A stretch of 64,000 nt of DNA from Plumapathes pennacea (Eukaryota; Cnidaria; Anthozoa; Antipatharia; Myriopathidae). Where the stretch lies: NCBI GenBank assembly GCA_964036295.1, contig OZ038466.1, positions 11,814,001 to 11,878,000 on the forward strand. Direction: 5' to 3'. The translations under genes were made by a program, and so were the position numbers. Numbering within the stretch: the stretch's first letter is position 1; the number at the start of each line of letters is the position of its first letter. Below are positions 3,779 through 50,980 of the stretch, piece after piece. The notes beneath the pieces are model-generated. The model was not told the DNA's origin. It ran no database searches and was given only the letters and a program-made list of their open reading frames with translations.

Positions 3779-6700
3779 TTATTTTGACTTATCAAAAATA
3801 GTCACATCTTCCCCTATGAGGGTAAACGGAGCCCAGAAACGGGGATGGCGGAACATCTCATCTTTTCTCACGGCGTTCGCGGCTATATTAAGGGATTCAT
3901 TTGCACTTTTACCGTAGGACAAGTTATTGTAGAAGTGAAGCATAAACAACAAAGTGGCCTTATCGTCAACTTCCCATAGTGTTACAAGAACTGCGCGAGC
4001 TCCTGCTCCGAGGAATGCACGAGCGATGCCAATTACGCCTTCCGTTTTGACTTCACCACGGCCGCTGTGGCAACAGCTGAGTACAACTAGCTTAGCCTTT
4101 ATGCGTTTACTTTCCAGATCAGAAATTTTCAGCATGACATCATCAACATTGTTTATATCCTTTCCAGAAGAAGGAGCAAACAAGATTTCTCCCCTTTTTG
4201 CATGTCCGTGAGATGCAATGTGAATCAAGTTGGCACGTTCAACTCTTCGAAGGAATCTCTTTTTGGTCGCTTCTTTCCCCACGAGCGGCTTAACGCTGAG
4301 CACCTTTGAAACAACCATTTCAACTTCTTTCAATGCAAAGGGTAGTCTTGGAGCAGTAATTATCTTGTCATCCATTTTTACTCTGCCGATATCGGGGTCT
4401 CCAATCACCAAGGGTCTTTCTCGTCCTGCTGGTTGTTCAGGGCGCTCTCTGATCATCTTTGCGGTCGCTAGTGAAGGAATGAATCTAACTTGTAAGGATT
4501 CCGCCGCATAGAGTCCGTTTTCATCCAAAAGGGCAGAAAATGGAACAAGAGCGAGTGGACCTTCCGGGACGATGACTGCTTGCGAACCCACTACATACTG
4601 TCGCGAAGTCCCAAGAAGAACTTGATACAAAACTTTTAGCAGATGGTTCAACTCTGACTCGTTTGACTTTTCAGGATTGCCAGAATTGTCCGTTTGACCT
4701 CTACGTACTGAGATTGTCAACCTGGCTACTTTCTTGTCTTTTAGCTGAGACACCACTGGATTTGAAAAAGCAAAATCTACATGCATTGCTGCAGAATCTA
4801 CAACGGATACTGGCTTCTTCCTGGTGAATTTCAATACTTCTTCTGAGTAAAGAAATGACAGTGAACGATCTTCGTATATGTCAACCATTCTACCTGGCGC
4901 TTTCATCAACTCCGTGACTTTGTTAACCAGGACCTTAACAAACCTCTCACACATAGTAAAGTCCTTCATGGAATGCTCTTTGGAATGTACCACTTCAGTC
5001 ATATCATGTTCCCAGAACAGTATGTCTGAATTTTGTTGTATCATCCAGGTGCTAATAGCAGAACCTAACGAGAGAAAAATGACTGTGCTTCCCAGAATCT
5101 TGACCACTTTACGGATTTCATGGACGGAAAGAATGGCTTTAGAAATACATCTATAGTTCAGGAGATTGCCTGTATAAATAAGTTCATTTAACGCTCGTGA
5201 ACGTCCTCTTTCGGCGTAAATAAGAGCTTCATCTCTTTTCTTTCGTGCTAAAAGAATTTCAATCAATGCCTTACAGTTTTGGCTAAAAACGTCCATTATA
5301 GAAACTTTATATTCATCCTTCACTGGAACATTCTGAAACAACTCATCGAAACATTCGGTAAATTTCCTTAAATTCGTTTCCGCCTTGTCGTACTGGCCAA
5401 GAGATTGAAAGCAGCATCCAAGGTGGCCATAAGCTGCTGCTTCTCCATTCTTGTCCCCAATCCCTTTTGCGATAGTCAGAAACATTTCCTGATATTTAAC
5501 AGCCTTCTCGTACTGGCCAAGAGAGTCAAAGAAACATCCAAGGTTGCCATAAGCTCTTCCTTCTCTATTCTTGTCCCCAATCTCTTTTGCGATAGTCAGA
5601 AGCATTTCGTGATATTTAATAGCCTTGTCGTACTGGCCAAGAGATTGAAAGCAACATCCAAGGTTGCCATAAGCTGTTCCTTCTCCATTCTTGTCCCCAA
5701 TCTCTTTTGCGATAGTCAGAAGCATTTCATGATATTTAATAGCCTTGTCGTACTGGCCAAGATATTGAAAGCAACATCCAAGGCTGCCATAAGCTGTTCC
5801 TTCTCCATGCTTGTCCCCAATCTCTTTTGCGATAGTCAGAAGCATTTCCTGATATTTAATAGCCTTGTCGTACTGGCCAAGAGAGTGAAAGCAACATCCA
5901 AGATTGCCATAAGCTGCTGCTTCTCCACTCTTGTTCCCAATCTCTTTTGCGATAGTCAGGCGCATTTCGTGATAATTAATAGCCTTGTCGTACTGGCCAA
6001 GATATTGAAAGCAACATCCAAGGTTGCCATAAGCTGTTCCTTCTCCATTCTTGTCCCCAATCTCTTTTGCGATAGTCAGGCGCATTTCCTGATATTTAAT
6101 AGCCTTGTCGTACTGGCCAAGAGAGTCAAAGCAACATCCAAGGTTGCCATAAGCTCTTCCTTCTCCGTTCTTGTCCCCGATCTCTTTTGCGATAGTCAGA
6201 AGCATTTCGTGATATTTAATAGCCTTGTCGTACTGGCCAAGATATTGAAAGCAACATCCAAGGTTGCCATAAGCTGTTGCTTCTCCATTTTTGTCCCCAA
6301 TCTCTTTTGCGACAGTCAGAAGCATTTCGTGATATTTAATAGCCTTCTCATACTGGCCAAGATATTGAAAACAACATCCAAGGTTGCCATAAGCTCTTCC
6401 TTCTCCATTCTTGTCCCCAATCTCTTTTGCGATAGTCAGGCGCATTTCCTGATATTTAATAGCCTTGTCGTACTGGCCAAGAGAGTCAAAGCAACATCCA
6501 AGGTTGCCATAAGCTGTTCCTTCAGCATTCTTGTCCCCAATCTCTTTTGCGATAGTCAGAATCATTTCGTGATAGTTAATAGCCTTGTCGTACTGGCCAA
6601 GATATTGAAAGCAACATCCAAGGTTGCCATAAGCTCTTCCTTTTCCACTCTTGTCCCCAATCTCTTTTGCGATAGTCAGGCCCATTTCCTCATATTTAAT

Positions 6701-9469
6701 AGCCTTGTCGTACTGGCCAAGATATTGAAAGCAACATCCAAGGTTGCCATAAGCTGTTCCTTCTCCATTCTTGTTCCCAATCTCTTTTGCGATAGTCAGG
6801 TGCATTTCCTGATATTTAATAGCCTTGTCGTACTGGCCAAGAGATTGAAAGCAACATCCAAGGTTGCCATAAGCTGTTCCTTCTCCATTCTTGTCCCCAA
6901 TCTCTTTTGCGATAGTCAGAAGCATTTCCTGAAATTTAATAGACTTCTCGTACTGGCCAAGACAGTGATAGGAACATCCAAGGTTGCCATAAGCTGTTCC
7001 TTCTCCATTCTTGTCCCCAATCTCTTTTGCGATAGTCAGAAGCATTTCGTGATATTTAATAGCCTTGTCGTACTGGCCAAGATATTGAAAGCAACATCCA
7101 AGGTTGCCATAAGCTGCTGCTTCTCCACTCTTGTCCCCAATCTCTTTTGCGATAGTCAGGCGCATTTCCTGATATTTAATAGCCTTGTCGTACTGGCCAA
7201 GAGAGTCACAGCAACATCCAAGATTGCCATAAGCTGCTGCTTCTCCACTCTTGTCTCGAATCTCTTTTGCGATTGTCAGGCGCATTTCCTGATATTTAAT
7301 AGCCTTGTCGTACTGGCCAAGAGATTGAAAGCAACATCCAAGGTTGCCATAAGCTCTTCCTTCTCCATTCTTGTCCCCAATCTCTTTTGCGATAGTCAGA
7401 AGCATTTCGTGATATTTAATAGCCTTGTCGTACTGGCCAAGAGATTGAAAGCAACATCCAAGGTTGCCATAAGCTGTTCCTTCTCCATTCTTGTCCCCAA
7501 TCTCTTTTGCGATAGTCAGGTGCATTTCGTGATATTTAATAGCCTTGTCGTACTGGCCAAGAGAGTCAAAGCAACATCCAAGGTTGCCATAAGCTGTCCC
7601 TTCTCCATTCATGTCCCCAATCTCTTTTGCGATAGTCAGGCGCATTTCGTGATATTTAATAGCCTTGTCGTACTGGCCAAGATATTGAAAGCAGCATCCA
7701 AGGTTGCCATAAGCTGTTCCTTCTCCATTCTTGTCCCCAATCTCTTTTGCGATAGTCAGGCGCATTTCCTGATATTCAATAGCCTTGTCGTACTGGCCAA
7801 GAGATTGAAAGCAACATCCAAGTTTGCCATAAGCTGCTGCTTCTCCATTCTTGTCCCCAATCTCTTTTGCGATAGTCAGGCGCATTTCGTGATATTTAAT
7901 AGCCTTGTCGTACTGGCTAAGAAATTGAAAGCAACATCCAAGGTTGCCATAAGCTGTTGCTTCTCCATTCTTGTCCCCAATCTCTTTTGCGATAGTCAGA
8001 AGCATTTCGTGATATTTAATAGCCTTGTCGTACTGGCCAAGAGATTGAAAGCAACATCCAAGGTTGCCATAAGCTCTTCCTTCTCCATTCTTGTCCCCAA
8101 TCTCTTTTGCGATAGTCAGAAGCATTTCGTGATATTTAATAGCCTTGTCGTACTGGCCAAGAGATTGAAAGCAACATCCAAGGTTGCCATAAGCTGTTCC
8201 TTCTCCATTCTTGTCCCCAATCTCTTTTGCGATAGTCAGGCCCATTTCCTCATAGTTAATAGCCTTGTCGTACTGGCCAAGATATTGAAAGCAACATCCA
8301 AGGTTGCCATAAGCTGTTCCTTCTCCATTCTTGTTCCCAATCTCTTTTGCGATGGTCAGGTGCATTTCCTGATATTTAATAGCCTTATCGTACTGGCCAA
8401 GAGATTGAAAGCAACATCCAAGGTTGCCATAAGCTGTTCCTTCTCCATTCTTGTCCCCAATCTCTTTTGCGATAGTCAGAAGCATTTCGTGATATTTAAT
8501 AGCCTTGTCGTACTGGCCAAGAGATTGAAAGCAACATCCAAGGTTGCCATAAGCTGTTCCTTCTCCTTTCTTGTCCCCAATCTCTTTTGCGATAGTCAGG
8601 TGCATTTCCTGATATTTAATAGCCTTGTCGTACTGGCCAAGAGAGTCAAAGCAACATCCAAGGTTGCCATAAGCTGTCCCTTCTCCATTCATGTCCCCAA
8701 TCTCTTTTGCGATAGTCAGGCGCATTTCGTGATATTTAATAGCCTTGTCGTACTGGCCAAGAGATTGAAAGCAGCATCCAAGGTTGCCATAAGCTGTTCC
8801 TTCTCCATTCTTGTCCCCAATCTCTTTTGCGATAGTCAGGCGCATTTCCTGATATTCAATAGCCTTGTCGTACTGGCCAAGAGATTGAAAGCAACATCCA
8901 AGGTTGCCATAAGCTGCTGCTTCTCCATTCTTGTCCCCAATCTCTTTTGCGATAGTCAGAAGCATTTCGTGATATTTAATAGCCTTGTCGTACTGGCTAA
9001 GAAATTGAAAGCAACATCCAAGGTTGCCATAAGCTGTTGCTTCTCCATTCTTGTCCCCAATCTCTTTTGCGATAGTCAGAAGCATTTCGTGATATTTAAT
9101 AGCCTTGTCGTACTGGCGAAGAGAGTCAAAGCAACATCCAAGGTTGCCATAAGCTGTCCCTTCTCCATTCTTGTCCCCGATCTCTTTTGCGATAGTCAGG
9201 CGCATTTCGTGATATTTAATAGCCTTGTCGTACTGGCCAAGAGAGTAAAAGCAACATCCAAGGTTGCCATAAGCTGTTCTTTCTCCATTCTTGTCCCCAA
9301 TCTCTTTTGCGATTGTCAAGCACGTTTTAAAATGTTTAAAGGCCTTGTTATAGTTTGCAATAGAATAATAGTTAGTACCGAATTCATTATGAATTTGTCT
9401 TTGAAGTTCCTTGTTTTTGTTCACTTCTGCGAACTTTAAAGAGATGAAGAGAGCCTGTAGTTTGTCCAT
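3779..9469 (-). CDS. TPR-CHAT protein (TTC28-like), 1,896 aa, 33 TPR units
   Basis: A single uninterrupted exon, starting at the first ATG at 9,469. Residues 1-32 form a short cap. About 33-1365 is an array of 33 TPR units of 40 residues each (120-bp DNA period), built on AYGNLGCCFDSLGQYDKAIK followed by a YHEMLLTIAKEIGDKNG half, like the 40-residue TPRs of LGN/TTC28. A helical linker with an ERGRSRAL motif follows. The CHAT domain (about 1590-1890) has VIVPEGPLALVPFSALL, the catalytic His1754 in HIASHGH, Cys1800 in VVLSCCHSGRG, and GIARAFLGAGARAVLVTLWE. CHAT is a caspase/separase-superfamily cysteine peptidase fold; an active enzyme is inferred from the intact dyad. No signal peptide or membrane segment is obvious, so it is probably intracellular. 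Substrate and ligand are unknown. A LINE abuts the stop codon, so the 3'UTR must run into repeat DNA. Confidence 0.93.
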   Translation of the reverse strand: MDKLQALFISLKFAEVNKNKELQRQIHNEFGTNYYSIANYNKAFKHFKTCLTIAKEIGDKNGERTAYGNLGCCFYSLGQYDKAIKYHEMRLTIAKEIGDKNGEGTAYGNLGCCFDSLRQYDKAIKYHEMLLTIAKEIGDKNGEATAYGNLGCCFQFLSQYDKAIKYHEMLLTIAKEIGDKNGEAAAYGNLGCCFQSLGQYDKAIEYQEMRLTIAKEIGDKNGEGTAYGNLGCCFQSLGQYDKAIKYHEMRLTIAKEIGDMNGEGTAYGNLGCCFDSLGQYDKAIKYQEMHLTIAKEIGDKKGEGTAYGNLGCCFQSLGQYDKAIKYHEMLLTIAKEIGDKNGEGTAYGNLGCCFQSLGQYDKAIKYQEMHLTIAKEIGNKNGEGTAYGNLGCCFQYLGQYDKAINYEEMGLTIAKEIGDKNGEGTAYGNLGCCFQSLGQYDKAIKYHEMLLTIAKEIGDKNGEGRAYGNLGCCFQSLGQYDKAIKYHEMLLTIAKEIGDKNGEATAYGNLGCCFQFLSQYDKAIKYHEMRLTIAKEIGDKNGEAAAYGKLGCCFQSLGQYDKAIEYQEMRLTIAKEIGDKNGEGTAYGNLGCCFQYLGQYDKAIKYHEMRLTIAKEIGDMNGEGTAYGNLGCCFDSLGQYDKAIKYHEMHLTIAKEIGDKNGEGTAYGNLGCCFQSLGQYDKAIKYHEMLLTIAKEIGDKNGEGRAYGNLGCCFQSLGQYDKAIKYQEMRLTIAKEIRDKSGEAAAYGNLGCCCDSLGQYDKAIKYQEMRLTIAKEIGDKSGEAAAYGNLGCCFQYLGQYDKAIKYHEMLLTIAKEIGDKNGEGTAYGNLGCSYHCLGQYEKSIKFQEMLLTIAKEIGDKNGEGTAYGNLGCCFQSLGQYDKAIKYQEMHLTIAKEIGNKNGEGTAYGNLGCCFQYLGQYDKAIKYEEMGLTIAKEIGDKSGKGRAYGNLGCCFQYLGQYDKAINYHEMILTIAKEIGDKNAEGTAYGNLGCCFDSLGQYDKAIKYQEMRLTIAKEIGDKNGEGRAYGNLGCCFQYLGQYEKAIKYHEMLLTVAKEIGDKNGEATAYGNLGCCFQYLGQYDKAIKYHEMLLTIAKEIGDKNGEGRAYGNLGCCFDSLGQYDKAIKYQEMRLTIAKEIGDKNGEGTAYGNLGCCFQYLGQYDKAINYHEMRLTIAKEIGNKSGEAAAYGNLGCCFHSLGQYDKAIKYQEMLLTIAKEIGDKHGEGTAYGSLGCCFQYLGQYDKAIKYHEMLLTIAKEIGDKNGEGTAYGNLGCCFQSLGQYDKAIKYHEMLLTIAKEIGDKNREGRAYGNLGCFFDSLGQYEKAVKYQEMFLTIAKGIGDKNGEAAAYGHLGCCFQSLGQYDKAETNLRKFTECFDELFQNVPVKDEYKVSIMDVFSQNCKALIEILLARKKRDEALIYAERGRSRALNELIYTGNLLNYRCISKAILSVHEIRKVVKILGSTVIFLSLGSAISTWMIQQNSDILFWEHDMTEVVHSKEHSMKDFTMCERFVKVLVNKVTELMKAPGRMVDIYEDRSLSFLYSEEVLKFTRKKPVSVVDSAAMHVDFAFSNPVVSQLKDKKVARLTISVRRGQTDNSGNPEKSNESELNHLLKVLYQVLLGTSRQYVVGSQAVIVPEGPLALVPFSALLDENGLYAAESLQVRFIPSLATAKMIRERPEQPAGRERPLVIGDPDIGRVKMDDKIITAPRLPFALKEVEMVVSKVLSVKPLVGKEATKKRFLRRVERANLIHIASHGHAKRGEILFAPSSGKDINNVDDVMLKISDLESKRIKAKLVVLSCCHSGRGEVKTEGVIGIARAFLGAGARAVLVTLWEVDDKATLLFMLHFYNNLSYGKSANESLNIAANAVRKDEMFRHPRFWAPFTLIGEDVTIFDKSK
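5400..9360 (-). repeat. 120-bp tandem array coding for 33 TPR units
   Basis: The same phase (for example GCAACATCCAAGG) recurs every 120 bp from 5,411 to 9,251 with no length variants, giving 33 units. Variation concentrates at a few codons: the residues after GCCF (DS, QS, QY, HS, YS), the YHEM/YQEM position, and the residue before LTIAKE (L, R, H, F). The repeats are otherwise nearly uniform, consistent with concerted evolution. Confidence 0.95.
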
Positions 9470-9957
9470 AATAGGTGTGTGGTGTTTCTGATCCTGTTAA
9501 AGTAATTAAGACCTTTGATGAGCTTAGGAGTGTATCTTCCTTAATCTAGTTTATGAGTACGTATTTCAGCAATAATCAAACAAGAAGTATGAGCCGAAGT
9601 AAGAGCCACAAGGAAGATTTTAGAACTATTGTCCTAATTTTTTTAGGTTCAGCCTGCAATCACGGATCGATCAAAATTATTGGGATGACTGATTACAAGT
9701 TTACCTCCCAGTTTTTCTTTGTTCGACCTATGCCTGCACAAGGAGCCTACATTGGGACATTTTGTACTGGTAAGCTGATTTCTGTGCTTCTCTTCTGGGT
9801 TTACATTTTCTCTGATGTACATACATTTTTACTACCATCAGCGAGGTTTGTTCCAGTATTCTACTTTGAATCATTTTGTAACTTCCTGTGATCAAGACGG
9901 TCACCGTCTTACACTTGGGGTGCGCGCGTTCGATTGACCGTGTTCCGGAGTAGGAAC
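9470..9957. other. 5' flank of the first TPR-CHAT gene
   Basis: Upstream region of the minus-strand gene. The plus-strand open stretch at 9,553-9,891 is not kept in copy B (a TGA interrupts it near 51,156), so I read it as noncoding. A 5'UTR splice acceptor is possible on the minus strand just upstream of the ATG (TTTAACAG), but nothing proves it. No confident promoter element was seen. Confidence 0.4.
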
Positions 9958-10035
9958 TACCCTGGTCCCAGAGGTTTTCTAATCCTCCGAACGAGCACTG
10001 AGCCGCGGAGCGGCGAAACCTCTGGGACCAGGGTA
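9958..10035. mobile_element. 78-bp TIR element with 9-bp target-site duplication (copy A)
   Basis: Perfect 20-bp terminal inverted repeats (TACCCTGGTCCCAGAGGTTT) at 9,958-9,977 and 10,016-10,035 are flanked by the direct repeat AGTAGGAAC at 9,949-9,957 and 10,036-10,044. The 9-bp duplication fits Mutator-like elements. It is too short to code for anything, so it is a minimal MITE. Confidence 0.85.
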
Positions 10036-10225
10036 AGTAGGAACCAGCTAAAATGATCCAAATATTTTTTTGTTCTGTGAGAAATTGTTTTCAAAACCTT
10101 CACGCTGACATTTCGAACAGCTCCCGATACAACTTGACATAATTCAGCTCCAAAAAGGAATTATCAATCAGTATTGCTATTCCTATTCCGGAATAAATCC
10201 AATTGAACGCGCCCTTACTGGTTTA

Positions 10226-10484
10226 TTTATGCTGGGCCTCAGGGCCCAGCATACCCCTGGTGGAGGAGGGGGGGTGGGGGGGTACTCCTCGGGTTTTCGT
10301 TTTGCCCCCTAAAATGGGCGTGGCTCGAGCATATTTTGACCCTAAAAGGTACCAAAGAGAAACGGCGCTTGTAGCTGACACTTCCGGGCACTCTGTTTAC
10401 ACTCAGCCATTTGTTCTTGTTGTTCGTTTGTAATCTGAGATGCAGCGACATGCGACTGCTATTATAAAACCGGAAACGGAAGTT
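10226..10484. mobile_element. Truncated repeat element with palindromic end (copy A)
   Basis: It begins with the palindrome GCTGGGCCTCAGGGCCCAGC, then a G-rich stretch and a block with GACCCTAAAAGGTACC. In copy B the same block continues for a further 240 bp with related CCTAAGCGGTACC motifs. Here it is cut at 10,484 by the 1.72-kb deletion. There is no credible ORF. Confidence 0.45.
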
Positions 10485-12190
10485 CGAGTATTCCCGCTCT
10501 TTAACAAATATAAAATTGAACGCGAGCCACAATATTTTTGCGTGTACAATTACTATTGCGAAACAAAGGCTACATGAACGGAAGAAACATTTCAACAGGC
10601 ATTGTACGATAAGCCAAAGCATTCTGATGACTGTCACGGGCTCGTAGCATAATACATGTAATAGTCGCAGAGCCTCGTTGTGTCAAGTCTTGAGCCGTGA
10701 GATGGATATTTTTGTCGCAGAAACACTGATATATTTTCGGCAAAAAAGAAAACTTTACAAAACAGCGTATGAGGCAACAGATGTCAAGTAAAGTGTAAAG
10801 CATAAATCGTATGTTTAGCTTTGATGTCCGTTTTCGGCTTGGTATCTTCCCAGAAGTATTTCGTGTCATGACTTCCTGAAAGGTTTCATTTCATTTCACA
10901 CTTTTTTGGTTTCGACGGTTCTGTCTATGACATAACTTCCCGATTTAGAATTTACTCTCTTTACAGTAGTCTCTTTGCCCTTTGTGTCACAAATTTTCAA
11001 TAATGTGTTCCAAGTGGCAAAGAAGATGTTTACATTCGTCTGCAACTTATCTCGATAATTAACGGCATTCCGTTGCCAGTTTTAAAAAGAAATGTGCCTC
11101 GTGTAACAGGGCATATTATTCTCGCAAATTTATGGGAAACGCAAAATATTTTCAGGATGAAAAGAGATTCTTTGGAAGGAAATATTGACTGAGGCGACTC
11201 AGCACATGTAGATATATCTAGTTTAACAAAATTACACAAGAACATGAGAACAGCCGGCTTTTGTACCACTGTTCATATTTGACGGTTGCAATCTATTCTT
11301 CGAAAGAACCGGCCTTCGGCAAAATAGAACTTACTTAATGCCGTTTACCGTATTCATACACGTATTGTAGTTTCACTGATCCCCCGTCAAAACTTTCGCT
11401 TGTTATTTCGCAACAGAAATACTTCAAAATATCTGAAAATTAAACTTCGTCGACGTTTTCCTGCCAACTGTACATTCTTACATTTGCATTTATATTTTCT
11501 CGCTGATATCAAAACAAAATGTCCAAAAATTCAAAATTAAAACTTATGGAATCTCAAGACCTACAGGATAAGAATTTAGTTGATGATGACGATATAAGGA
11601 GGGTACCACGGAGCTAATACGAGGTTATCTAAAATGATTCTTCTGTACAACTGTTATAACATTTCTGGTAAAAAGGAGGACAGATACTAGCACCGGGAAT
11701 TCCCCTGATCTTTTAGAGAAGCGTGCGAGTTATTTTAAAAGCCTTCATACTGTGTTATTAATGAAGGATGAGAGACAAGGACGGAGGGTATAGCGCCGAG
11801 ACAAGCCAACAATGGTAATCGCTTGGCCACCAAGGTTTTACGCGTCAAATTTTATGGAACAAACTGATGTAATGCTTACCATGGCAACAACTGTAGGTTT
11901 CTTTAGTTGCAGAGTGACGACTTGGATGAAACTCCCAGTATAAAGTGCTCCGATACGTGCTGCCAGGTAGATAAGTGAAAAAAGAATTTAGAAAAAGTAC
12001 TAAACGAGACCCAGCCACTTCAGTCTGTTGACTTACCTTTAATCCAAGGAGAGAATCCAACTCCGTCTGAGGTGTCGACAAACGCCCATTTTATACCCAT
12101 ACGGCTCTAAAACTACCCAACTTCACTTTCCGTCAACGTGGACAATTTCAAGCCATAGACAGCCAAGCTGGAAATTGAAAACAACGTCGT
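10485..12190. other. Noncoding flank, copy A
   Basis: Matches 53,731-55,450 in copy B. The open stretches here are not conserved between the copies because of small indels. The first 400 bp is related, in inverted orientation and with gaps, to 29,300-30,280, so it belongs to a dispersed multicopy segment. No gene was recognised. Confidence 0.4.
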
Positions 12191-12790
12191 ATTAATGGAA
12201 TGCGTCATAGAAAATCATAAAGAGCAGCAATCAGAGCAGCCTCTGTTTTACCGAAATTTCGACGCAATGGCATTTCTTTGCTTTACCCGCGTCAGCAATG
12301 CGTTTCAAATTGGGAGAAAAATAGACTCGAACATTTGTTTTGTGTTAAACTCAGATACTCAAAGATGGGTCCACTTTCGATACTGAAACCCCCCGATCCT
12401 TTGTTGTGCTAATGACTCGGGCTCCTCAAAGGTTTCGATACTGACTGAACTCCCGACCCTTTCTGAAAGAAATCACCTCCTAGATCCGCTTTCGATGCTG
12501 ACTGAACTCCTAACCCTTTGTTGTGCTTAGATGTCTCAAAGAAATTGCTTGCTAGGTCCGCTTTCGATACTAAAACTCACGATCCGTTTTCATGCGCTGT
12601 TTGTCGGAGTTCAGTTGTCTCCTGTGCCCGCCTTTTGCTTCTAATACTCTCTGTTAGCATTCTTTGACGTCTTTGGGTTTTACGCTCTTTGATTGTTTCA
12701 CGCTTACGCCTTGCCCTGGGGTCCATGCCCTGTCATACTTCCTTTGTTTTGAAGACGAGCTTCGTTCAGGTTCAACCATGTCATAATATA
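12190..12790 (-). pseudogene. Degenerate Arg/Lys/Gln-rich ORF remnant, possibly Helitron-type N-terminus (copy A)
   Basis: Minus-strand translation gives a broken frame containing an EARLQ segment followed by RRKRETIKERKTQRRQRM and a SKRRAQETTELRQ segment. This is similar in composition and order to the ORF at 19,326-19,778. Such basic, Gln-rich N-terminal stretches occur in Helitron-encoded proteins of cnidarians. That assignment is weak, because no Rep or helicase motif is present. Confidence 0.3.
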
Positions 12791-13106
12791 AGATTGTTTT
12801 GTATGGGCCTTGTTAGCATTCAATTTTTTATATTGGAGTTTTTGTGCGCGCTTGATTTTTCATATTATTCAGTATTTTATTTTAGGCCTAGGGTTATGGT
12901 TGGGTTTCTGGTTATGTCTAGAGCAAACTTTTTAGATCGCGACATACGAAATAATATATATGCAATTTTTTACTGAAAAAACTCTTAAACCGTGCCAGTA
13001 ACGTACTGATGAACATTTTCACTTGAGGAGATTCCCGTTTACTACCCCTCGCTGAAGCTCGGGGGATAAAGATATTCGTCTTTATGTTATATAGTCAGTA
13101 ACATTG

Positions 13107-13149
13107 TAGTCTGTGTACAGCCGTCCCACTCTTGGCTGTACACAGGCTA
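13107..13149. mobile_element. 43-bp TIR remnant with 8-bp target-site duplication
   Basis: Ends TAGTCTGTGTACAGCC and GGCTGTACACAGGCTA are inverted repeats with one mismatch. They are flanked by the direct repeat TAACATTG at 13,099-13,106 and 13,150-13,157. The termini match those of the 6.2-kb element at 56,340-62,567, so this is an internally deleted member of that family, at the same insertion site in copy A. Confidence 0.8.
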
Positions 13150-32795: not shown

Positions 32796-32814
32796 AAGCC
32801 CCATGCACACGAGC

Positions 32815-43200: not shown

Positions 43201-46200
43201 AGCAACATCCAAGGTTGCCATAAGCTCTTCCTTCTCCATTCTTGTCCCCAATCTCTTTTGCGATAGTCAGAAGCATTTCGTGATATTTAATAGCCTTGTC
43301 GTACTGGCCAAGAGAGTCAAAGCAGCATGCAAGGTTGCCATAAGCTCTTCCTTCTCCATTCTTGTCCCCAATCTCTTTTGCGATAGTCAGGCTCATTTCG
43401 TGATATTTAATAGCCTTATCGTACTGGCCAAGAGATCGAAAGCAACATCCAAGGCTGCCATAAGCTGTTCCTTCTCCATTCTTGTCCCCAATCTCTTTTG
43501 CGATAGTCAGAAGCATTTCGTGATATTTAATAGCCTTGTCGTACTGGCCAAGAGAGTCAAAGCAACATCCAAGGCTGCCATAAGCTCTTCCTTCTCCATT
43601 CTTGTCCCCAATCTCTTTTGCGATAGTCAGAAACATTTCGTGACATTTAATAGCCTTGTCGTACTGGCCAAGAGAGTCAAAGCAACATCCAAGGTTGCCA
43701 TAAGCTGTTCCTTCTCCATTCTTGTCCCCAATCTCTTTTGCGATAGTCAGAAACATTTCGTGATATTTAATAGCCTTGTCGTACTGGCCAAGAGATTGAA
43801 AGCAACATCCAAGGTTGCCATAACCTATTCCTTCTCCATTCTTGTCCCCAATCTCTTTTGCGATAGTCAGACGCATTTCGTGATATTTAATAGCCTTGTC
43901 GTACTGGCTAAGAGATTGAAAGCAACATCCAAGGTTGCCATAAGCTCTTCCTTCTCCATCCTTGTCCCCAATCTCTTTTGCGATAGTCAGAAGCATTTCG
44001 TGATATTTAATAGCCTTGTTGTACTGGCCAAGAAAGTCAAAGCAACATCCAAGGTTGCCATAAGCTGTTCCTTCTCCATTCTTGTCCCCAATCTCCTTTG
44101 CGATAGTCAGGCGCATTTCGTGATATTTAATAGCCTTGTCGTACTGCCCAAGAGAGTCAAAGCAACATCCAAGGCTGCCATAAGCTGTTCCTTCTCCATT
44201 CTTGTCCCCAATCTCTTTTGCGATAGTCAGAAACATTTCGTGATATTTAATAGCCTTGTCGTACTGGCCAAGAGAGTCAAAGCAACATCCAAGGTTGCCA
44301 TAAGCTCTTCCTTCTCCATTCTTGTCCCCAATCTCTTTTGCGATAGTCAGAAACATTTCGTGATATTTAATAGCCTTGTCGTACTGGCTAAGAGAGTTAA
44401 AGCAACATCCAAGGTTGCCATAAGCTGTTCCTTCTCCATTCTTGTCCCCAATCTCTTTTGCAATAGTCAGGCGCATTTCGTGATATTTAATAGCCTTCTC
44501 GTACTGGCCAAGATATTGAAAGCAACATCCAAGGTTGCCATAAGCTCTTCCTTCTCCATTCTTGTCCCCAATTTCTTTTGCGATAGTCAGGCTCATTTCG
44601 TGATATTTAATAGCCTTGTCGTACTGGCCAAGAGAGTCAAAGCAACATCCAAGGTTGCCATAAGCTGTTCCTTCTCCATTCTTGTCCCCATTCTCTTTTG
44701 CGATAGTCAGAAACATTTCGTGATATTTAATAGCCTTGTCGTACTGGCCAAGAGAGTCAAAGCAACATCCAAGGTTGCCATAAGCTGTTCCTTCTCCATT
44801 CTTGTCCCCAATCTCTTTTGCGATAGTCAGGCGCATTTCCTGATATTTAATAGCCTTGTTGTACTGGCCAAGAGATTGAAAGCAACATCCAAGGTTGCCA
44901 TAAGTTGCTGCTTCTCCATTCTTGTTCCCAATCTCTTTTGCGATAGTCAGAAACATTTCGTGATATTTAATAGCCTTGTCGTACTGGCCAAGAGAGAGAA
45001 AGCAACATCCAAGGTTGCCATAAGCTGTTCCTTCTCCATTCTTGTCCACAATCTCTTTTGCGATAGTCAGACGCATTTCCTGATATTTAATAGCCTTCTC
45101 GTACTGGCCAAGAGAGTGAAAGCAACATCCAAGGTTGCCATAAGCTGTTCCTTCTCCATTCTTGTCCCCAATCTCTTTTGCGATAGTCAGACGCATTTCG
45201 TGATATTTAATAGCCTTGTCGTACTGGCCAAGAGAGTAAAAGCAACATCCAAGGTTGCCATAAGCTGTTCCTTCTCCATTCTTGTCCCCAATCTCTTTTG
45301 CGATAGTCAGACGCATTTCGTGATATTTAATAGCCTTGTCGTACTGGCCAAGAGAGTCAAAGCAACATCCAAGGTTGTCATAAGCTGTTCCTTCTCCATT
45401 ATTGTCCCCAATCTCTTTTGCGATAGTCAGAAACATTTCGTGATATTTAATAGCCTTTTCGTACTGGCCAAGAGATTGAAAGCAACATCCAAGGCTGTCA
45501 TAAGCTGTTCCTTCTCCATTCTTGTCCCCAATCTCTTTTGCGATAGTCAGAAGCATTTCGTGATATTTAATAGCCTTGTCGTACTGGCCAAGAGATTGAA
45601 AGCAACATCCAAGGTTGCCATAAGCTGTTCCTTCTCCATTCTTGTCCCCAATTTTTTTTGCGATAGTCAGACGCATTTCGTGATATTTAATAGCCTTGTC
45701 GTACTGGCTAAGAGATTGAAAGCAACATCCAAGGTTGCCATAAGCTCTTCCTTCTCCATCCTTGTCCCCAATCTCTTTTGCGATAGTCAGAAGCATTTCG
45801 TGATATTTAATAGCCTTGTTGTACTGGCCAAGAAAGTCAAAGCAACATCCAAGGTTGCCATAAGCTGTTCCTTCTCCATTCTTGTCCCCAATCTCCTTTG
45901 CGATAGTCAGGCGCATTTCGTGATATTTAATAGCCTTGTCGTACTGCCCAAGAGAGTCAAAGCAACATCCAAGGCTGCCATAAGCTGTTCCTTCTCCATT
46001 CTTGTCCCCAATCTCTTTTGCGATAGTCAGAAACATTTCGTGATATTTAATAGCCTTGTCGTACTGGCCAAGAGAGTCAAAGCAACATCCAAGGTTGCCA
46101 TAAGCTCTTCCTTCTCCATTCTTGTCCCCAATCTCTTTTGCGATAGTCAGAAACATTTCGTGATATTTAATAGCCTTGTCGTACTGGCTAAGAGAGTTAA

Positions 46201-49200
46201 AGCAACATCCAAGGTTGCCATAAGCTGTTCCTTCTCCATTCTTGTCCCCAATCTCTTTTGCAATAGTCAGGCGCATTTCGTGATATTTAATAGCCTTCTC
46301 GTACTGGCCAAGATATTGAAAGCAACATCCAAGGTTGCCATAAGCTCTTCCTTCTCCATTCTTGTCCCCAATTTCTTTTGCGATAGTCAGGCTCATTTCG
46401 TGATATTTAATAGCCTTGTCGTACTGGCCAAGAGAGTCAAAGCAACATCCAAGGTTGCCATAAGCTGTTCCTTCTCCATTCTTGTCCCCATTCTCTTTTG
46501 CGATAGTCAGAAACATTTCGTGATATTTAATAGCCTTGTCGTACTGGCCAAGAGAGTCAAAGCAACATCCAAGGTTGCCATAAGCTGTTCCTTCTCCATT
46601 CTTGTCCCCAATCTCTTTTGCGATAGTCAGGCGCATTTCCTGATATTTAATAGCCTTGTTGTACTGGCCAAGAGATTGAAAGCAACATCCAAGGTTGCCA
46701 TAAGTTGCTGCTTCTCCATTCTTGTTCCCAATCTCTTTTGCGATAGTCAGAAACATTTCGTGATATTTAATAGCCTTGTCGTACTGGCCAAGAGAGAGAA
46801 AGCAACATCCAAGGTTGCCATAAGCTGTTCCTTCTCCATTCTTGTCCACAATCTCTTTTGCGATAGTCAGACGCATTTCCTGATATTTAATAGCCTTCTC
46901 GTACTGGCCAAGAGAGTGAAAGCAACATCCAAGGTTGCCATAAGCTGTTCCTTCTCCATTCTTGTCCCCAATCTCTTTTGCGATAGTCAGACGCATTTCG
47001 TGATATTTAATAGCCTTGTCGTACTGGCCAAGAGAGTAAAAGCAACATCCAAGGTTGCCATAAGCTGTTCCTTCTCCATTCTTGTCCCCAATCTCTTTTG
47101 CGATAGTCAGACGCATTTCGTGATATTTAATAGCCTTGTCGTACTGGCCAAGAGAGTCAAAGCAACATCCAAGGTTGTCATAAGCTGTTCCTTCTCCATT
47201 ATTGTCCCCAATCTCTTTTGCGATAGTCAGAAACATTTCGTGATATTTAATAGCCTTTTCGTACTGGCCAAGAGATTGAAAGCAACATCCAAGGCTGTCA
47301 TAAGCTGTTCCTTCTCCATTCTTGTCCCCAATCTCTTTTGCGATAGTCAGAAGCATTTCGTGATATTTAATAGCCTTGTCGTACTGGCCAAGAGATTGAA
47401 AGCAACATCCAAGGTTGCCATAAGCTGTTCCTTCTCCATTCTTGTCCCCAATTTTTTTTGCGATAGTCAGAAGCATTTCGTGATATTCAATAGCCTTCTC
47501 GTACTGGCCAAGATATTGAAAGCAACATCCAAGGTTGCCATAAGCTGTTCCTTCTCCATTCTTTTCCCCAATCTCTTTTGCGATAGTCAGATGCATTTCG
47601 TGATATTTAATAGCCTTCTCGTACTGGCCAAGAGAGTCAAAGCCACATCCAAGGTTGCCATAAGCTGTTCCTTCTCCATTCTTGTCCCCAATCTCTTTTG
47701 CGATAGTCAGGCAGATTTCGTGATATTTAATAGCCTTGTCGTACTGGCCAAGAGAGTCAAAGCAACATCCAAGGTTGCCATAAGCTGTTCCTTCTCCATT
47801 CTTGTCCCCAATCTCTTTTGCGATAGTCAGGCGCATTTCGTGATATTTAATAGCCTTGTCGTACTGGCCAAGAGAGTCAAAGCAACATCCAAGGTTGTCA
47901 TAAGCTCTTCCTTCTCCATTCTTGTCCCCAATCTCTTTTGCGATAGTCAGAAGCATTTCGTGATATTTAATAGCCTTTTCGTACTGGCCAAGAGATTGAA
48001 AGCAACATCCAAGGCTGTCATAAGCTGTTCCTTCTCCATTCTTGTCCATAATCTCTTTTGCGATAGTCAGAAGCATTTCGTGATATTTAATAGCCTTGTC
48101 GTACTGGCCAAGAGATTGAAAGCAACATCCAAGGTTGCCATGAGCTGTTCCTTCTCCATTCTTGTCCCCAATCTCTTTTGCGATAGTCAGATGCATTTCG
48201 TGATATTTAATAGCCTTCTCGTACTGGCCAAGAGAGTCAAAGCAACATCCAAGGTTGCCATAAGCTGTTCCTTCTCCATTCTTGTCCCCAATCTCTTTTG
48301 CGATAGTCAGGCAGATTTCGTGATATTTAATAGCCTTGTCGTAATGGCCAAGAGAGTGAAAGCAACATCCAAGGTTGCCATAAGCTGTTCCTTCTCCATT
48401 CTTGTCCCCAATCTCTTTTGCGATAGTCAGGCGCATTTCGTGATATTTAATAGCCTTGTCGTACTGGCCAAGAGAGTCAAAGCAATATCCAAGGTTGTCA
48501 TAAGCTGTTCCTTCTCCATTCTTGTCCCCAATCTCTTTTGCGATAGTCAGAAGCATTTCGTGATATTTAATTGCCTTTTCGTACTGGCCAAGAGAGTCAA
48601 AGCAACATCCAAGGCTGCCATAAGCTCTTCCTTCTCCATTCTTGTCCCCAATCTCTTTTGCGATAGTCAGAAGCATTTCGTGATATTTAATAGCCTTGTC
48701 GTACTGGCCAAGAGAGTCAAAGCAACATCCAAGGTTGCCATAAGCTGTTCCTTCTCCATTCTTGTCCCCAATCTCTTTTGCGATAGTCAGAAGCATTTCG
48801 TGATATTTAATAGCCTTGTCGTACTGGCCAAGAGAGTCAAAGCAACATCCAAGGTTGTCATAAGCTCTTCCTTCTCCATTCTTGTCCCCAATCTCTTTTG
48901 CGATAGTCAGAAGCATTTCGTGATATTTAATAGCCTTTTCGTACTGGCCAAGAGATTGAAAGCAACATCCAAGGCTGTCATAAGCTGTTCCTTCTCCATT
49001 CTTGTCCATAATCTCTTTTGCGATAGTCAGAAGCATTTCGTGATATTTAATAGCCTTGTCGTACTGGCCAAGAGATTGAAAGCAACATCCAAGGTTGCCA
49101 TGAGCTGTTCCTTCTCCATTCTTGTCCCCAATCTCTTTTGCGATAGTCAGATGCATTTCGTGATATTTAATAGCCTTCTCGTACTGGCCAAGAGAGTCAA

Positions 49201-50980
49201 AGCAACATCCAAGGTTGCCATAAGCTGTTCCTTCTCCATTCTTGTCCCCAATCTCTTTTGCGATAGTCAGAAGCATTTCGTGATATTTAATAGCCTTGTC
49301 GTACTGGCCAAGAGAGTCAAAGCAACATCCAAGGTTGCCATAAGCTGTTCCTTCTCCATTCTTGTCCCCAATCTCTTTTGCGATAGTCAGAAGCATTTCG
49401 TGATATTTAATAGCCTTGTCGTACTGGCCAAGAGAGTCAAAGCAACATCCAAGGTTGTCATAAGCTCTTCCTTCTCCATTCTTGTCCCCAATCTCTTTTG
49501 CGATAGTCAGAAGCATTTCGTGATATTTAATAGCCTTTTCGTACTGGCCAAGAGATTGAAAGCAACATCCAAGGCTGTCATAAGCTGTTCCTTCTCCATT
49601 CTTGTCCATAATCTCTTTTGCGATAGTCAGAAGCATTTCGTGATATTTAATAGCCTTGTCGTACTGGCCAAGAGATTGAAAGCAACATCCAAGGTTGCCA
49701 TGAGCTGTTCCTTCTCCATTCTTGTCCCCAATCTCTTTTGCGATAGTCAGATGCATTTCGTGATATTTAATAGCCTTCTCGTACTGGCCAAGAGAGTCAA
49801 AGCAACATCCAAGGTTGCCATAAGCTGTTCCTTCTCCATTCTTGTCCCCAATCTCTTTTGCGATAGTCAGGCAGATTTCGTGATATTTAATAGCCTTGTC
49901 GTAATGGCCAAGAGAGTGAAAGCAACATCCAAGGTTGCCATAAGCTGTTCCTTCTCCATTCTTGTCCCCAATCTCTTTTGCGATAGTCAGGCGCATTTCG
50001 TGATATTTAATAGCCTTGTCGTACTGGCCAAGAGAGTCAAAGCAATATCCAAGGTTGTCATAAGCTGTTCCTTCTCCATTCTTGTCCCCAATCTCTTTTG
50101 CGATAGTCAGAAGCATTTCGTGATATTTAATAGCCTTTTCGTACTGGCCAAGAGAGTCAAAGCAACATCCAAGGCTGCCATAAGCTCTTCCTTCTCCATT
50201 CTTGTCCCCAATCTCTTTTGCGATAGTCAGAAGCATTTCGTGATATTTAATAGCCTTGTCGTACTGGCCAAGAGAGTCAAAGCAACATCCAAGGTTGCCA
50301 TAAGCTGTTCCTTCTCCATTCTTGTCCCCAATCTCTTTTGCGATAGTCAGAAGCATTTCGTGATATTCAATAGCCTTCTCGTACTGGCCAAGATATTGAA
50401 AGCAACATCCAAGGTTGCCATAAGCTGTTCCTTCTCCATTCTTGTCCCCAATCTCTTTTGCGATAGTCATAAGCATTTCGTGATATTTAATAGCCTTGTC
50501 GTACTGGCCAAGAGATTGAAAGCAACATCCAAGGTTGCCATAAGCTGTTCCTTCTCCATTCTTGTCCCCAATCTCTTTTGCGATAGTCAGAAGCATTTCG
50601 TGATATTCAATAGCCTTCTCGTACTGGCCAAGATTTTGAAAGCAACATCCAAGGTTGCCATAAGCTGTTCCTTCTCCATTCTTGTCCCCAATCTCTTTTG
50701 CAATAGTCAAAAGCATTTCGTGATATTTAATAGCCTTCTCGTACTGGCCAAGTGAGTCAAAGCAACATCCAAGGTTACCATAAGCTCTTCCTTCTCCATT
50801 CTTGTCCCCAATCTCTTTTGCGATTGTCAAGCACCTTTTAAAATGTTCAAAGGCCTTGTTGTAGTTTGCAACAGAATAATAGTTAGTGCCGAATTCATCA
50901 TGAATTTGTTTTTGAAGTTCCTTGTTTTTGTTTACTTCTGCGAACTTTAAAGAGATGAAGAGAGCCTGTAGTTTGTCCAT
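40250..50980 (-). CDS. Giant TPR-CHAT protein (TTC28-like), 3,576 aa, 75 TPR units
   Basis: Paralogue of the gene at 3,779-9,469 in the second copy of the duplicated segment, also one intronless exon (10.7 kb) starting at ATG 50,980. The cap starts MDKLQALFISLKFAEVNKNK, as in the first gene. Residues about 33-3045 hold 75 TPR units, exactly 42 more than the paralogue. The linker and CHAT region (about 3270-3570) differ from the paralogue at only about ten residues over about 520, and the dyad is conserved as His3434 and Cys3480. The array contains an apparently identical tandem duplication of 15 units and nested 5- and 13-unit duplications, so it is recent and unstable. A real open frame over 10.7 kb of repeats implies selection or very recent expansion. 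Assembly collapse or inflation of the array cannot be excluded. The function is unknown; a TPR-gated cysteine peptidase is inferred. Confidence 0.92.
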   Translation of the reverse strand: MDKLQALFISLKFAEVNKNKELQKQIHDEFGTNYYSVANYNKAFEHFKRCLTIAKEIGDKNGEGRAYGNLGCCFDSLGQYEKAIKYHEMLLTIAKEIGDKNGEGTAYGNLGCCFQNLGQYEKAIEYHEMLLTIAKEIGDKNGEGTAYGNLGCCFQSLGQYDKAIKYHEMLMTIAKEIGDKNGEGTAYGNLGCCFQYLGQYEKAIEYHEMLLTIAKEIGDKNGEGTAYGNLGCCFDSLGQYDKAIKYHEMLLTIAKEIGDKNGEGRAYGSLGCCFDSLGQYEKAIKYHEMLLTIAKEIGDKNGEGTAYDNLGYCFDSLGQYDKAIKYHEMRLTIAKEIGDKNGEGTAYGNLGCCFHSLGHYDKAIKYHEICLTIAKEIGDKNGEGTAYGNLGCCFDSLGQYEKAIKYHEMHLTIAKEIGDKNGEGTAHGNLGCCFQSLGQYDKAIKYHEMLLTIAKEIMDKNGEGTAYDSLGCCFQSLGQYEKAIKYHEMLLTIAKEIGDKNGEGRAYDNLGCCFDSLGQYDKAIKYHEMLLTIAKEIGDKNGEGTAYGNLGCCFDSLGQYDKAIKYHEMLLTIAKEIGDKNGEGTAYGNLGCCFDSLGQYEKAIKYHEMHLTIAKEIGDKNGEGTAHGNLGCCFQSLGQYDKAIKYHEMLLTIAKEIMDKNGEGTAYDSLGCCFQSLGQYEKAIKYHEMLLTIAKEIGDKNGEGRAYDNLGCCFDSLGQYDKAIKYHEMLLTIAKEIGDKNGEGTAYGNLGCCFDSLGQYDKAIKYHEMLLTIAKEIGDKNGEGRAYGSLGCCFDSLGQYEKAIKYHEMLLTIAKEIGDKNGEGTAYDNLGYCFDSLGQYDKAIKYHEMRLTIAKEIGDKNGEGTAYGNLGCCFHSLGHYDKAIKYHEICLTIAKEIGDKNGEGTAYGNLGCCFDSLGQYEKAIKYHEMHLTIAKEIGDKNGEGTAHGNLGCCFQSLGQYDKAIKYHEMLLTIAKEIMDKNGEGTAYDSLGCCFQSLGQYEKAIKYHEMLLTIAKEIGDKNGEGRAYDNLGCCFDSLGQYDKAIKYHEMRLTIAKEIGDKNGEGTAYGNLGCCFDSLGQYDKAIKYHEICLTIAKEIGDKNGEGTAYGNLGCGFDSLGQYEKAIKYHEMHLTIAKEIGEKNGEGTAYGNLGCCFQYLGQYEKAIEYHEMLLTIAKKIGDKNGEGTAYGNLGCCFQSLGQYDKAIKYHEMLLTIAKEIGDKNGEGTAYDSLGCCFQSLGQYEKAIKYHEMFLTIAKEIGDNNGEGTAYDNLGCCFDSLGQYDKAIKYHEMRLTIAKEIGDKNGEGTAYGNLGCCFYSLGQYDKAIKYHEMRLTIAKEIGDKNGEGTAYGNLGCCFHSLGQYEKAIKYQEMRLTIAKEIVDKNGEGTAYGNLGCCFLSLGQYDKAIKYHEMFLTIAKEIGNKNGEAATYGNLGCCFQSLGQYNKAIKYQEMRLTIAKEIGDKNGEGTAYGNLGCCFDSLGQYDKAIKYHEMFLTIAKENGDKNGEGTAYGNLGCCFDSLGQYDKAIKYHEMSLTIAKEIGDKNGEGRAYGNLGCCFQYLGQYEKAIKYHEMRLTIAKEIGDKNGEGTAYGNLGCCFNSLSQYDKAIKYHEMFLTIAKEIGDKNGEGRAYGNLGCCFDSLGQYDKAIKYHEMFLTIAKEIGDKNGEGTAYGSLGCCFDSLGQYDKAIKYHEMRLTIAKEIGDKNGEGTAYGNLGCCFDFLGQYNKAIKYHEMLLTIAKEIGDKDGEGRAYGNLGCCFQSLSQYDKAIKYHEMRLTIAKKIGDKNGEGTAYGNLGCCFQSLGQYDKAIKYHEMLLTIAKEIGDKNGEGTAYDSLGCCFQSLGQYEKAIKYHEMFLTIAKEIGDNNGEGTAYDNLGCCFDSLGQYDKAIKYHEMRLTIAKEIGDKNGEGTAYGNLGCCFYSLGQYDKAIKYHEMRLTIAKEIGDKNGEGTAYGNLGCCFHSLGQYEKAIKYQEMRLTIAKEIVDKNGEGTAYGNLGCCFLSLGQYDKAIKYHEMFLTIAKEIGNKNGEAATYGNLGCCFQSLGQYNKAIKYQEMRLTIAKEIGDKNGEGTAYGNLGCCFDSLGQYDKAIKYHEMFLTIAKENGDKNGEGTAYGNLGCCFDSLGQYDKAIKYHEMSLTIAKEIGDKNGEGRAYGNLGCCFQYLGQYEKAIKYHEMRLTIAKEIGDKNGEGTAYGNLGCCFNSLSQYDKAIKYHEMFLTIAKEIGDKNGEGRAYGNLGCCFDSLGQYDKAIKYHEMFLTIAKEIGDKNGEGTAYGSLGCCFDSLGQYDKAIKYHEMRLTIAKEIGDKNGEGTAYGNLGCCFDFLGQYNKAIKYHEMLLTIAKEIGDKDGEGRAYGNLGCCFQSLSQYDKAIKYHEMRLTIAKEIGDKNGEGIGYGNLGCCFQSLGQYDKAIKYHEMFLTIAKEIGDKNGEGTAYGNLGCCFDSLGQYDKAIKCHEMFLTIAKEIGDKNGEGRAYGSLGCCFDSLGQYDKAIKYHEMLLTIAKEIGDKNGEGTAYGSLGCCFRSLGQYDKAIKYHEMSLTIAKEIGDKNGEGRAYGNLACCFDSLGQYDKAIKYHEMLLTIAKEIGDKNGEGRAYGNLGCCFHSLGQYNKAIKYHEMLLTIAKEIGDKNGEGRANGNLGCCFSSLGQYDKAIKYHEMFLTIAKEIGDKNGEGRAYGNLGCCFDSLGQYDKAIKCHEMFLTIAKEIGDKNGEGRAYGSLGCCFDSLGQYEKAIKYHEMLLTIAKEIGDKNGEGTAYGSLGCCFDSLGQYDKAIKYHEMRLTIAKEIGDKNGEGRAYGSLGCCFDSLGQYDKAIKYHEMLLTIAKEIGDKNGEGTAYGSLGCCFRSLGQYDKAFKYQEMRLTIAKEIGDKNGEGTAYGNLGCCFDSLGQYEKASKYHEMLLTIAKEIGNKNGEGRAYGNLGCCFYSLGQYDKAFKYYEICLTIAKEIGDKNGEGTAYGNLGCCFNSLGQYDKAIKYQEMLLTIAKEIGNKNGEAAAYGNLGCCFQSLGQYDKAIKYQEMRLTIAKEIGDKNGEGTAYGNLGRCFDSLGQYDKGETSLKKFTECFDELFQNVPVKDEYKVSIMDVFNQNCKALIEILLARKKRDEALICAERGRSRALNELIYTGNLRNYRCISKAILSVHEIRKVVKILGSTVIFLSLGSAISSWMIQQNSDILFWEHDLIEVVHSKEQSMKDFTMCERFVKVLVNKVTELMKAPGRMVDIYEDRSLSFLYSEEALKFTRKKPVSVVDSAGMHVDFAFSNPVVSQLKDKKVARLTISVPRGQTDNSGNPEKSNESELNHLLKVLYQVLLGTSRQYVVGSQAVIVPEGPLALVPFSALLDENGLYAAESLQVRFIPSLATAKMIRERPEQPAGRERPLVIGDPDIGRVKMDDKIITAPRLPFALKEVEMVVSKVLSVKPLVGKEATKKRFLRRVERANLIHIASHGHAKRGEILFAPSSGKDINNVDDVMLKISDLESKRIKAKLVVLSCCHSGRGEVRTEGVIGIARAFLGAGARAVLVTLWEVDDKATLLFMLHFYNNLSYGKSANESLNIAANAVRKDEMFRHPRFWAPFTLIGEDVTIFDKSK
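43861..47460 (-). repeat. Higher-order tandem duplication of 15 TPR units (2 x 1,800 bp)
   Basis: 43,861-45,660 and 45,661-47,460 look identical line by line. Diagnostic variants recur at an exact 1,800-bp offset: the CCATCCTTG unit (43,957/45,757), the CTGCCCAAG unit (44,146/45,946), the TTGTCCACA unit (45,042/46,842), the ATTGTCCCC unit (45,400/47,200) and the TTTTTTTG unit (45,652/47,452). The flanking units differ, which fixes the boundaries. Confidence 0.9.
47881..50400 (-). repeat. Nested higher-order duplications of TPR units (5-unit and 13-unit offsets)
   Basis: Units carrying TTGTCCATA recur at 48,045, 49,005 and 49,605, that is 8 then 5 units apart. Units carrying GTAATGGCC and GCAATATCC recur 13 units (1,560 bp) apart, at 48,340/49,900 and 48,481/50,041. 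The 600-bp offset match runs from about 48,661 and breaks at both ends. This is a mosaic of at least two successive multi-unit duplications. Confidence 0.85.

Follow-up and report, generated by a model that had tools for sequence, protein, structure and literature searches.

Block duplication and position-specific variation in the repeat arms of two TPR-CHAT paralogues of the antipatharian Plumapathes pennacea

We analyzed a 64,000-nucleotide stretch of the genome of the antipatharian Plumapathes pennacea (GCA_964036295.1, OZ038466.1), hereafter called the window, which lies at C5:11814001-11878000 of a 290-Mb assembly of 24 contigs. It carries two genes, A and B, for proteins combining a long array of tetratricopeptide repeats (TPRs) with a C-terminal CHAT domain. 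Judged from their sequences, A and B are members of the large TPR-CHAT (TTC28-like) family joined by a segmental duplication, in which a fast-diversifying intracellular recognition arm is probably coupled to a putative protease. The repeat units are homogenised at most sites, silent ones included, and positions 2, 12 and 27, followed by 24, 9 and 13, exceed the silent rate. The arrays have recently grown as blocks of several units were duplicated in tandem and in register, each time within a single array. The label TTC28-like follows PMC12314368 and PMC9145168.

Two paralogues with arrays of unequal length

Gene A (3779..9469, minus strand) and gene B (40250..50980, minus strand) are open from ATG to stop and encode proteins of 1,896 and 3,576 aa, respectively; a 5' exon upstream of both frames is possible, and the intronless structure given in the original prediction is putative. 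The array of gene A comprises 33 TPR units of 40 aa (residues 51-1370; 5360..9319, minus strand), the last being a diverged C-cap, and that of gene B 75 units of 40 aa (residues 51-3050; 41831..50830, minus strand). In both proteins the array is preceded by 50 aa and followed by 526 aa, and it accounts for all of the 1,680 aa (42 x 40) by which they differ in length. Anchoring the units on the LTIAKEI motif gave 33 and 75 units at a spacing of 40 aa without exception, and TRF reported a 120-bp unit in 32.8 (A) and 74.8 (B) copies, with repeat scores that exclude chance. Protein lengths and unit counts, as given in the original prediction, are thus confirmed. That prediction had further pointed out a difference of exactly 42 whole units. 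However, in-register gain or loss of an in-frame 120-bp unit yields a multiple of 40 aa automatically, and a special cause for this number was rejected.

Both genes lie in a duplicated segment. The segment with gene A spans 1..13133 (unstranded), and its low end may extend beyond the window; the segment with gene B spans 36491..56366 (unstranded) and is set apart by its longer array and by 1.7 kb of sequence at ~52007-53728. Positions 1-5380 pair with 36491-41851, and 9319-13133 pair with 50830-56366, the latter interrupted by the 1.7-kb stretch in copy B. Divergence of the non-coding flanks amounts to 2.8% on either side (107/3,749 and 103/3,616 aligned sites). Caps and CHAT domains had been described as nearly identical. 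This holds for the C-terminal coding part, with 98.9% DNA identity (17/1,581 bp differ, 1.1%), but less so for the N-cap, with 94.7% (8/150 sites differ, 5.3%).

How array length changes

Gene B contains an exact 15-unit (1,800 bp) tandem duplication, with units 29-43 (45671..47470, minus strand) as the first copy and units 44-58 (43871..45670, minus strand), identical in DNA, as the second. Moreover, a second copy of its units 5-12 lies at 18-25 (3 differences) and an exact copy of units 9-13 at 14-18, which suggests an 8-unit duplication and a subsequent 5-unit duplication. In gene A, 5 units are repeated at lag 9 (6 differences), and similar recurrences were found among the closest paralogues: a 31-unit block at lag 32 in L116 (2 differences), and blocks of 10 units in L113 (0 differences), 5 units in L115 (2 differences) and 4 units in L118 (0 differences). 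No internal block of at least 3 units was seen in L114, L117, L119, L120 and L121. Exact neighbour pairs at lag 1 were absent from 10 of the 11 arrays and occurred once in the remaining one (L117). Block recurrences within loci, together with near-zero lag-1 pairs, indicate growth by blocks and not by unit-by-unit slippage, which we therefore rejected as the main route. Exchange of units between loci was likewise rejected as the main recent driver, since none of the 55 pairs among the 11 loci had a block of at least 3 units in common; paralogues outside this sample are possible donors.

As a further result, the order of units in A bears no relation to that in B. Aligning the interior units of both arrays gave a score of 37.1 against a shuffled mean of 37.0, and 140 of 300 shuffles reached 37.1. 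Loss of unit order at a flank divergence of 2.8% means that the arrays turn over faster than the flanks, unless an unsampled paralogue replaced one array.

The TPR-CHAT family in the assembly

A CHAT search of the assembly gave 135 scored matches among 317 candidates, all far below an E value of 1e-3. In a search with the C-terminus of A, the closest loci besides A and B were 98, 97, 96, 95 and 95% identical. Internal stops interrupt the CHAT stretch in just 1/135 rows of the first search and 2/87 rows of the second. Unit counts over 11 related loci, at a 40-aa spacing throughout, range from 14 to 75: besides A (33) and B (75), the fetched paralogues have 41 (L113), 22 (L114), 65 (L115), 18 (L117), 34 (L118), 36 (L119), 14 (L120) and 17 units (L121), and L116, whose DNA was read to 10 kb, has at least 69. 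Change of length in whole units, as originally proposed, is therefore seen across all loci of this set, and 526 aa follow the last unit in all seven closest loci. Twenty further paralogues, picked for long frames, have 25 to 57 units; every step is 40 aa in 16 of them, and L093, L099, L100 and L112 show one or two deviating steps.

Selection counts were based on 31 arrays, a non-random sample made up of A and B, 9 of the 10 paralogues nearest to them, and 20 arrays with long frames from the 135 listed matches. L085-L092, eight loci that were delimited automatically and have 4-7 units each, stand outside these counts, and C11:5790252 and the partial C1:21716063 outside the loci read.

Two regions hold several matches. 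At C5:11.42-11.55 Mb, ~260 kb from the window, ten same-strand CHAT matches in ~130 kb form a tandem TPR-CHAT cluster, of which three loci were read (L103, L104, L112). At C6:18.28-18.63 Mb, CHAT matches with the same scores and frame lengths are repeated (e.g. 18284027, 18449734, 18583719), which suggests that a large segment was multiplied very recently or else was duplicated in the assembly. Related loci were also sought in genome_contigs (raw C-terminus query) and viral_contigs, and CHAT in phages; these searches led to nothing.

Variation within the 40-residue unit

Amino-acid-changing (pN) and silent (pS) variation was estimated for each unit position by a counting method without a codon model; for the 31 arrays, both terminal units and any duplicate units were removed beforehand. 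TPR positions follow our own alignment to the 34-residue consensus, which agrees with an alignment to LGN. The mean pairwise identity of units is 0.855 in A and 0.878 in B, compared to 0.52-0.91 in the paralogues. The combined set of A and B holds 106 units without C-caps, 76 of them distinct. Here, 11 nucleotide sites reach a minor frequency of 10% or more; 10 of them alter the encoded residue, and the remaining one belongs to codon 27. The highest pN was reached at positions 12 and 27 (0.44 each), followed by 2 (0.29), 13 (0.20), 24 (0.17) and 18 (0.16), and the silent value was 0.040 excluding and 0.057 including codon 27.

Across the 31 arrays, the six most variable positions include 27 and 12 in 28 arrays each, 2 in 27, 9 in 20, 24 in 14 and 13 in 10. 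pN exceeds the pS of the array at positions 2, 12 and 27 in 29/31 arrays each, at position 24 in 23/31 and at position 9 in 22/31; sign tests, which treat non-independent arrays, gave 5e-7, 0.011 and 0.029, respectively. Position 12 alone shows 19 different residues over 1,062 units.

Local hypermutation was considered as the sole cause of this pattern and rejected. In the six top codons, mean variability at bases 1, 2 and 3 is 0.27, 0.32 and 0.16, compared to 0.08, 0.06 and 0.10 in the other codons, so that the first two bases vary most (codon 24 excepted). Silent differences between same-residue pairs are 0.020-0.074 at the variable codons, within the range found elsewhere (0.002-0.160).

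Location of the variable positions in the TPR fold

According to Magliery and Regan (PMC1261162), TPR positions 2, 5, 9, 12, 13, 33 and 34 vary most and are exposed on the concave side, and positions 2, 5, 6, 9, 12 and 13 are ligand contacts in HOP. Four of our six top positions fall within the HOP contact set (P 0.002, post hoc), and variation in helix A lies on one face (P 0.003). The predicted structure of 8 units is LGN-like. In LGN, peptides are held in the inner groove via the Asn of a Leu-Gly-Asn triplet and Arg side chains (PMC3438535), and this Asn corresponds to TPR position 9 in our numbering. In contrast to LGN, where Asn at position 9 anchors peptides, the units of A and B carry a near-invariant Cys-Cys at positions 9-10 (LGCCF), with Cys in 104/106 and 103/106 units; other paralogues have Asn at position 9 in part.

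The CHAT domain

The CHAT domain (PF12770) occupies residues 1610-1887 of A (3809..4642, minus strand) and residues 3290-3567 of B (40280..41113, minus strand), with E values of 3.6e-53 and 1.9e-52 in the two proteins. By alignment to the bacterial dyad (SHG and LSxC motifs), the putative catalytic residues are His1754 (SHG motif; 4208..4210) and Cys1800 (second C of LSCC; 4070..4072) in A, and His3434 (40679..40681) and Cys3480 (40541..40543) in B, all on the minus strand. In a first structure model, the confidence score (pLDDT) of the CHAT part was mostly <50. A 38-sequence model reached block values of 70-94 over residues 121-330, apart from one block at 48, and stayed mostly <50 over the first 120 residues; it matches DdvA, SAVED-CHAT, separase, gingipains, Csx29 and caspases. 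The CHAT domains of A and B are separated by 4 silent changes and 1 amino-acid change, and over seven paralogues pN/pS is 0.33 in CHAT compared to 0.65 in the linker. The predicted CHAT fold and the His/Cys dyad are intact and the domain is under purifying selection, in keeping with a putative caspase-like protease. The originally proposed cysteine peptidase is upheld to this extent, resting on the motif alignment and the expected predicted fold.

Comparison with known systems

Coral TPR-CHAT (TTC28-like) proteins have an architecture equal to that of A and B. The family counts 276 and 304 genes in two Acropora and 6 to 362 among the corals examined (PMC12314368, PMC9145168), with TPR stretches of 31-3,832 aa and tandem duplication ascribed to non-allelic recombination (PMC12314368, PMC9145168). 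Array-length variation in corals has thus already been published (PMC12314368), but the portions of these accounts available to us describe neither position-specific diversification, nor intra-array block duplication, nor loss of unit order. In the accessible parts of the open-licence literature, we found no description of hypervariable TPR positions in TPR-CHAT proteins; PMC8195603, PMC7159879 and PMC10907252 treat related bacterial and marine-invertebrate conflict systems, in the available portions without such an observation.

Regarding bacterial relatives, 207 of 72,556 plasmid records match CHAT; the 15 matches listed are mostly cyanobacterial, at 31.3-35.2% identity. Cyanobacterial CHAT domains are 31-37% identical to gene A in 36 aligned rows and have the same dyad. 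Like A and B, cyanobacterial TPR-CHAT proteins consist of 40-aa TPR units followed by CHAT, but their arrays are shorter, with a longest run of 15 units in 78 loci. Of these loci, 43 were set aside because their runs were shorter than 8 units or offered an insufficient number of distinct ones, and 10 of the remaining 35 because of a unit identity <0.6. In the resulting 25 arrays, the top six positions include 12 in 21, 2 and 9 in 19 each, 27 in 15 and 13 in 14, and in the ranking by mean relative pN, 5 of the top six positions are common to cyanobacterial and animal arrays (P 5e-5, post hoc). As homology of CHAT, the likeness to bacterial TPR-CHAT effectors noted in the original prediction is real, but it does not extend to membership of Csx29, the TPR-CHAT protein acting with Cas7-11 in Craspase: the Csx29 model NF041237 scored 18.3 bits at a cut-off of 300, and the host here is an animal.

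LGN/Pins (GPSM2) is the closest solved TPR arm but, unlike A and B, has 8 repeats, no CHAT and conserved ligands. Among the Pfam matches of A and B at E 0.001, there was no GoLoco family and no NACHT or NB-ARC domain.

The closest published analogue that we found for the mode of evolution is the fungal NLRs with near-identical repeats (PMC4986451, PMC12222747). Fungal NLRs (het-e/het-d with WD40; Podospora TPR and ANK) share near-identical repeats and a changing repeat number with A and B, and their TPRs show positive selection at few positions on the concave face (PMC4986451, PMC12222747). Features of this fungal type, i.e. repeats >85% identical within a protein and diversifying selection at few repeat positions, are found in A and B as well, the latter by the counting method. 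In contrast, the fungal repeats are mostly 42-aa TPRs with 21 units reported in the available text, whereas A and B have 40-aa units, up to 75 of them, and a CHAT protease in an animal.

Further features of the window and the assembly

Within the TPR arm, which is matched by PF13424, PF13176 and other Pfam families (CHAT being a single stretch per protein), other matches, for instance to TEX29, NAD_synthase, RIG-I_C and DNAJ_related, were taken as repeat noise. Long open reading frames (ORFs) lie antisense over both arrays (5405-9439, plus strand, 1,344 aa; 41996-50755, plus strand, 2,919 aa). These were rejected as genes: the antisense frame is codon-aligned and receives stops only from TTA, CTA and TCA codons, so that unit composition and codon choice account for its length.

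A (TCAAG)n microsatellite directly follows the stop codon of both genes (3753-3777 and 40229-40248). Adjoining gene A is a 271-aa ORF without Pfam match (1206-2021, plus strand), whose duplicate counterpart (37385-38431, plus strand) is broken by one in-frame stop. Between A and B lies a DEAD/DEAH helicase domain fragment (32768-33490, plus strand; PF00270, E 7.7e-8). Upstream of gene A, ~10038-10217 belongs to a dispersed repeat found at no fewer than 27 places in the assembly (at least 27; 79-89% alike). The ~360-490 bp upstream of the ATG are common to several paralogues (C5:12.01 Mb, C4, C1; ~93%), and a C6 paralogue has a longer shared upstream stretch (88%). Elsewhere, the 17.7-kb contig C24 carries, at 4400-7000, a mitochondrial COX1 in two parts, and the intron between them contains a LAGLIDADG-like frame (judged by eye); a COX1 intron with a LAGLIDADG endonuclease is typical of hexacorals. 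Taken with the published distribution of the TPR-CHAT family (PMC12314368), this points to a hexacoral host, on which a search for GFP as a host marker, negative and uninformative, had no bearing.

Discussion

How could such proteins work? In each, an N-terminal arm of 40-residue LGN-like TPRs is joined by a linker to a putative caspase-like CHAT protease, and the variable positions may together make up the surface for recognising a protein ligand. This surface would be reshuffled and resized as blocks of units are duplicated or lost. Ligand binding may then release or recruit the protease, leading to cleavage of a target and thereby to cell death or signalling. By analogy with fungal NLRs carrying near-identical hypervariable repeats, the protein might be a receptor for innate immunity or self/non-self recognition. 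The sensor arm of the original prediction gains some support from the hypervariable repeat positions. A more far-reaching version, which we put forward tentatively, is that TPR-CHAT arms constitute a modular recognition code: each unit would carry a "word" at positions 2, 9, 12, 13, 24 and 27, and germline block duplication would rewrite word order and number, giving many fast-changing receptor-proteases, with the same design in cyanobacteria.

Several results weigh against a recognition arm. Silent-level variation is high in codon 27 of A and B (pS 0.55), and in codon 24 the third base is the most variable. At the groove positions 5, 6 and 13, pN exceeds pS in just 11, 9 and 14 of 31 arrays, compared to 16/31 at each of positions 1, 36 and 39 and 15/31 at position 18; taken over the whole array, it does so in 14/31. 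Positions 2, 9, 12 and 13 alone fit the known groove, leaving 24 and 27 structurally unexplained: helix B, which bears both, faces outward in LGN (PMC6525239), and its variation shows no helical-wheel preference (P=0.78). In the cyanobacterial arrays, overall pS exceeds pN in 25/25, so that the evidence there is clearer for the choice of positions than for selection. P values are indicative, as the animal arrays are related by descent, 20 of the 31 were selected for their long frames and the positions were chosen post hoc. Finally, the reported role of human TTC28 is in cell division and not in immunity (PMC12314368, PMC9145168).

Neutral concerted evolution appears rather unlikely to us. It would hold that the arrays are unstable and minisatellite-like, that variation accumulates where the TPR structure tolerates it and that length is near-neutral. 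Block duplications indeed need no selection, a tolerant surface would likewise show up at these positions in other lineages, and the whole-array excess of pN in fewer than half of the arrays agrees with this explanation. However, tolerance alone would be expected to leave pN at or below pS, which is not the case at positions 2, 12 and 27 in nearly all arrays; furthermore, bases 1 and 2 lead in the variable codons (not codon 24) and the third base elsewhere, and CHAT stretches are mostly free of stops.

If the arms do serve recognition, allorecognition, i.e. telling self from non-self tissue instead of sensing pathogens, is a sub-case that overlaps with that reading and that we consider unlikely. 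Heterokaryon incompatibility genes are among the fungal receptors that carry near-identical repeats (PMC12222747, PMC4986451), but nothing here separates allorecognition from pathogen sensing.

Less probable still is a scaffold or cell-division role as for human TTC28, in which long arms would set multivalency or spacing and length would matter over sequence. The domain order equals that of TTC28 according to the available portions of the coral papers, the TPR arm resembles the spindle-orientation protein LGN/Pins, and array length varies widely among the loci read. A housekeeping scaffold, however, need not multiply to the family size found here or diversify at few positions. That long or exactly duplicated arrays are in part assembly artefacts is highly improbable: the 15-unit block of B is identical over 1,800 bp and short-read assemblies of such repeats are unreliable (PMC12222747), but ~289 of 290 Mb lie in 12 contigs, the 31-unit block of L116 has 2 differences, unit counts are unequal among the 11 loci, and B has 60 units even without the exact block.

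Recognition thus remains the reading that we favour for the TPR-CHAT arms. Coral TPR-CHAT expansions are known yet unexplained, and their published discussion, in the portions available, invokes a general diversity of partners. To this the present analysis adds the intra-array block duplication, the lost unit order between paralogues and the position-specific diversification. The selection signature, at positions shared with cyanobacterial homologues, leads to the testable proposal that these residues read ligands, with the CHAT protease as output. If true, animals would possess, in addition to NLRs and TLRs, another protein architecture through which intracellular recognition can diversify rapidly in the germline, and in which the fungal strategy of near-identical hypervariable repeats would be mounted on a caspase-like protease.
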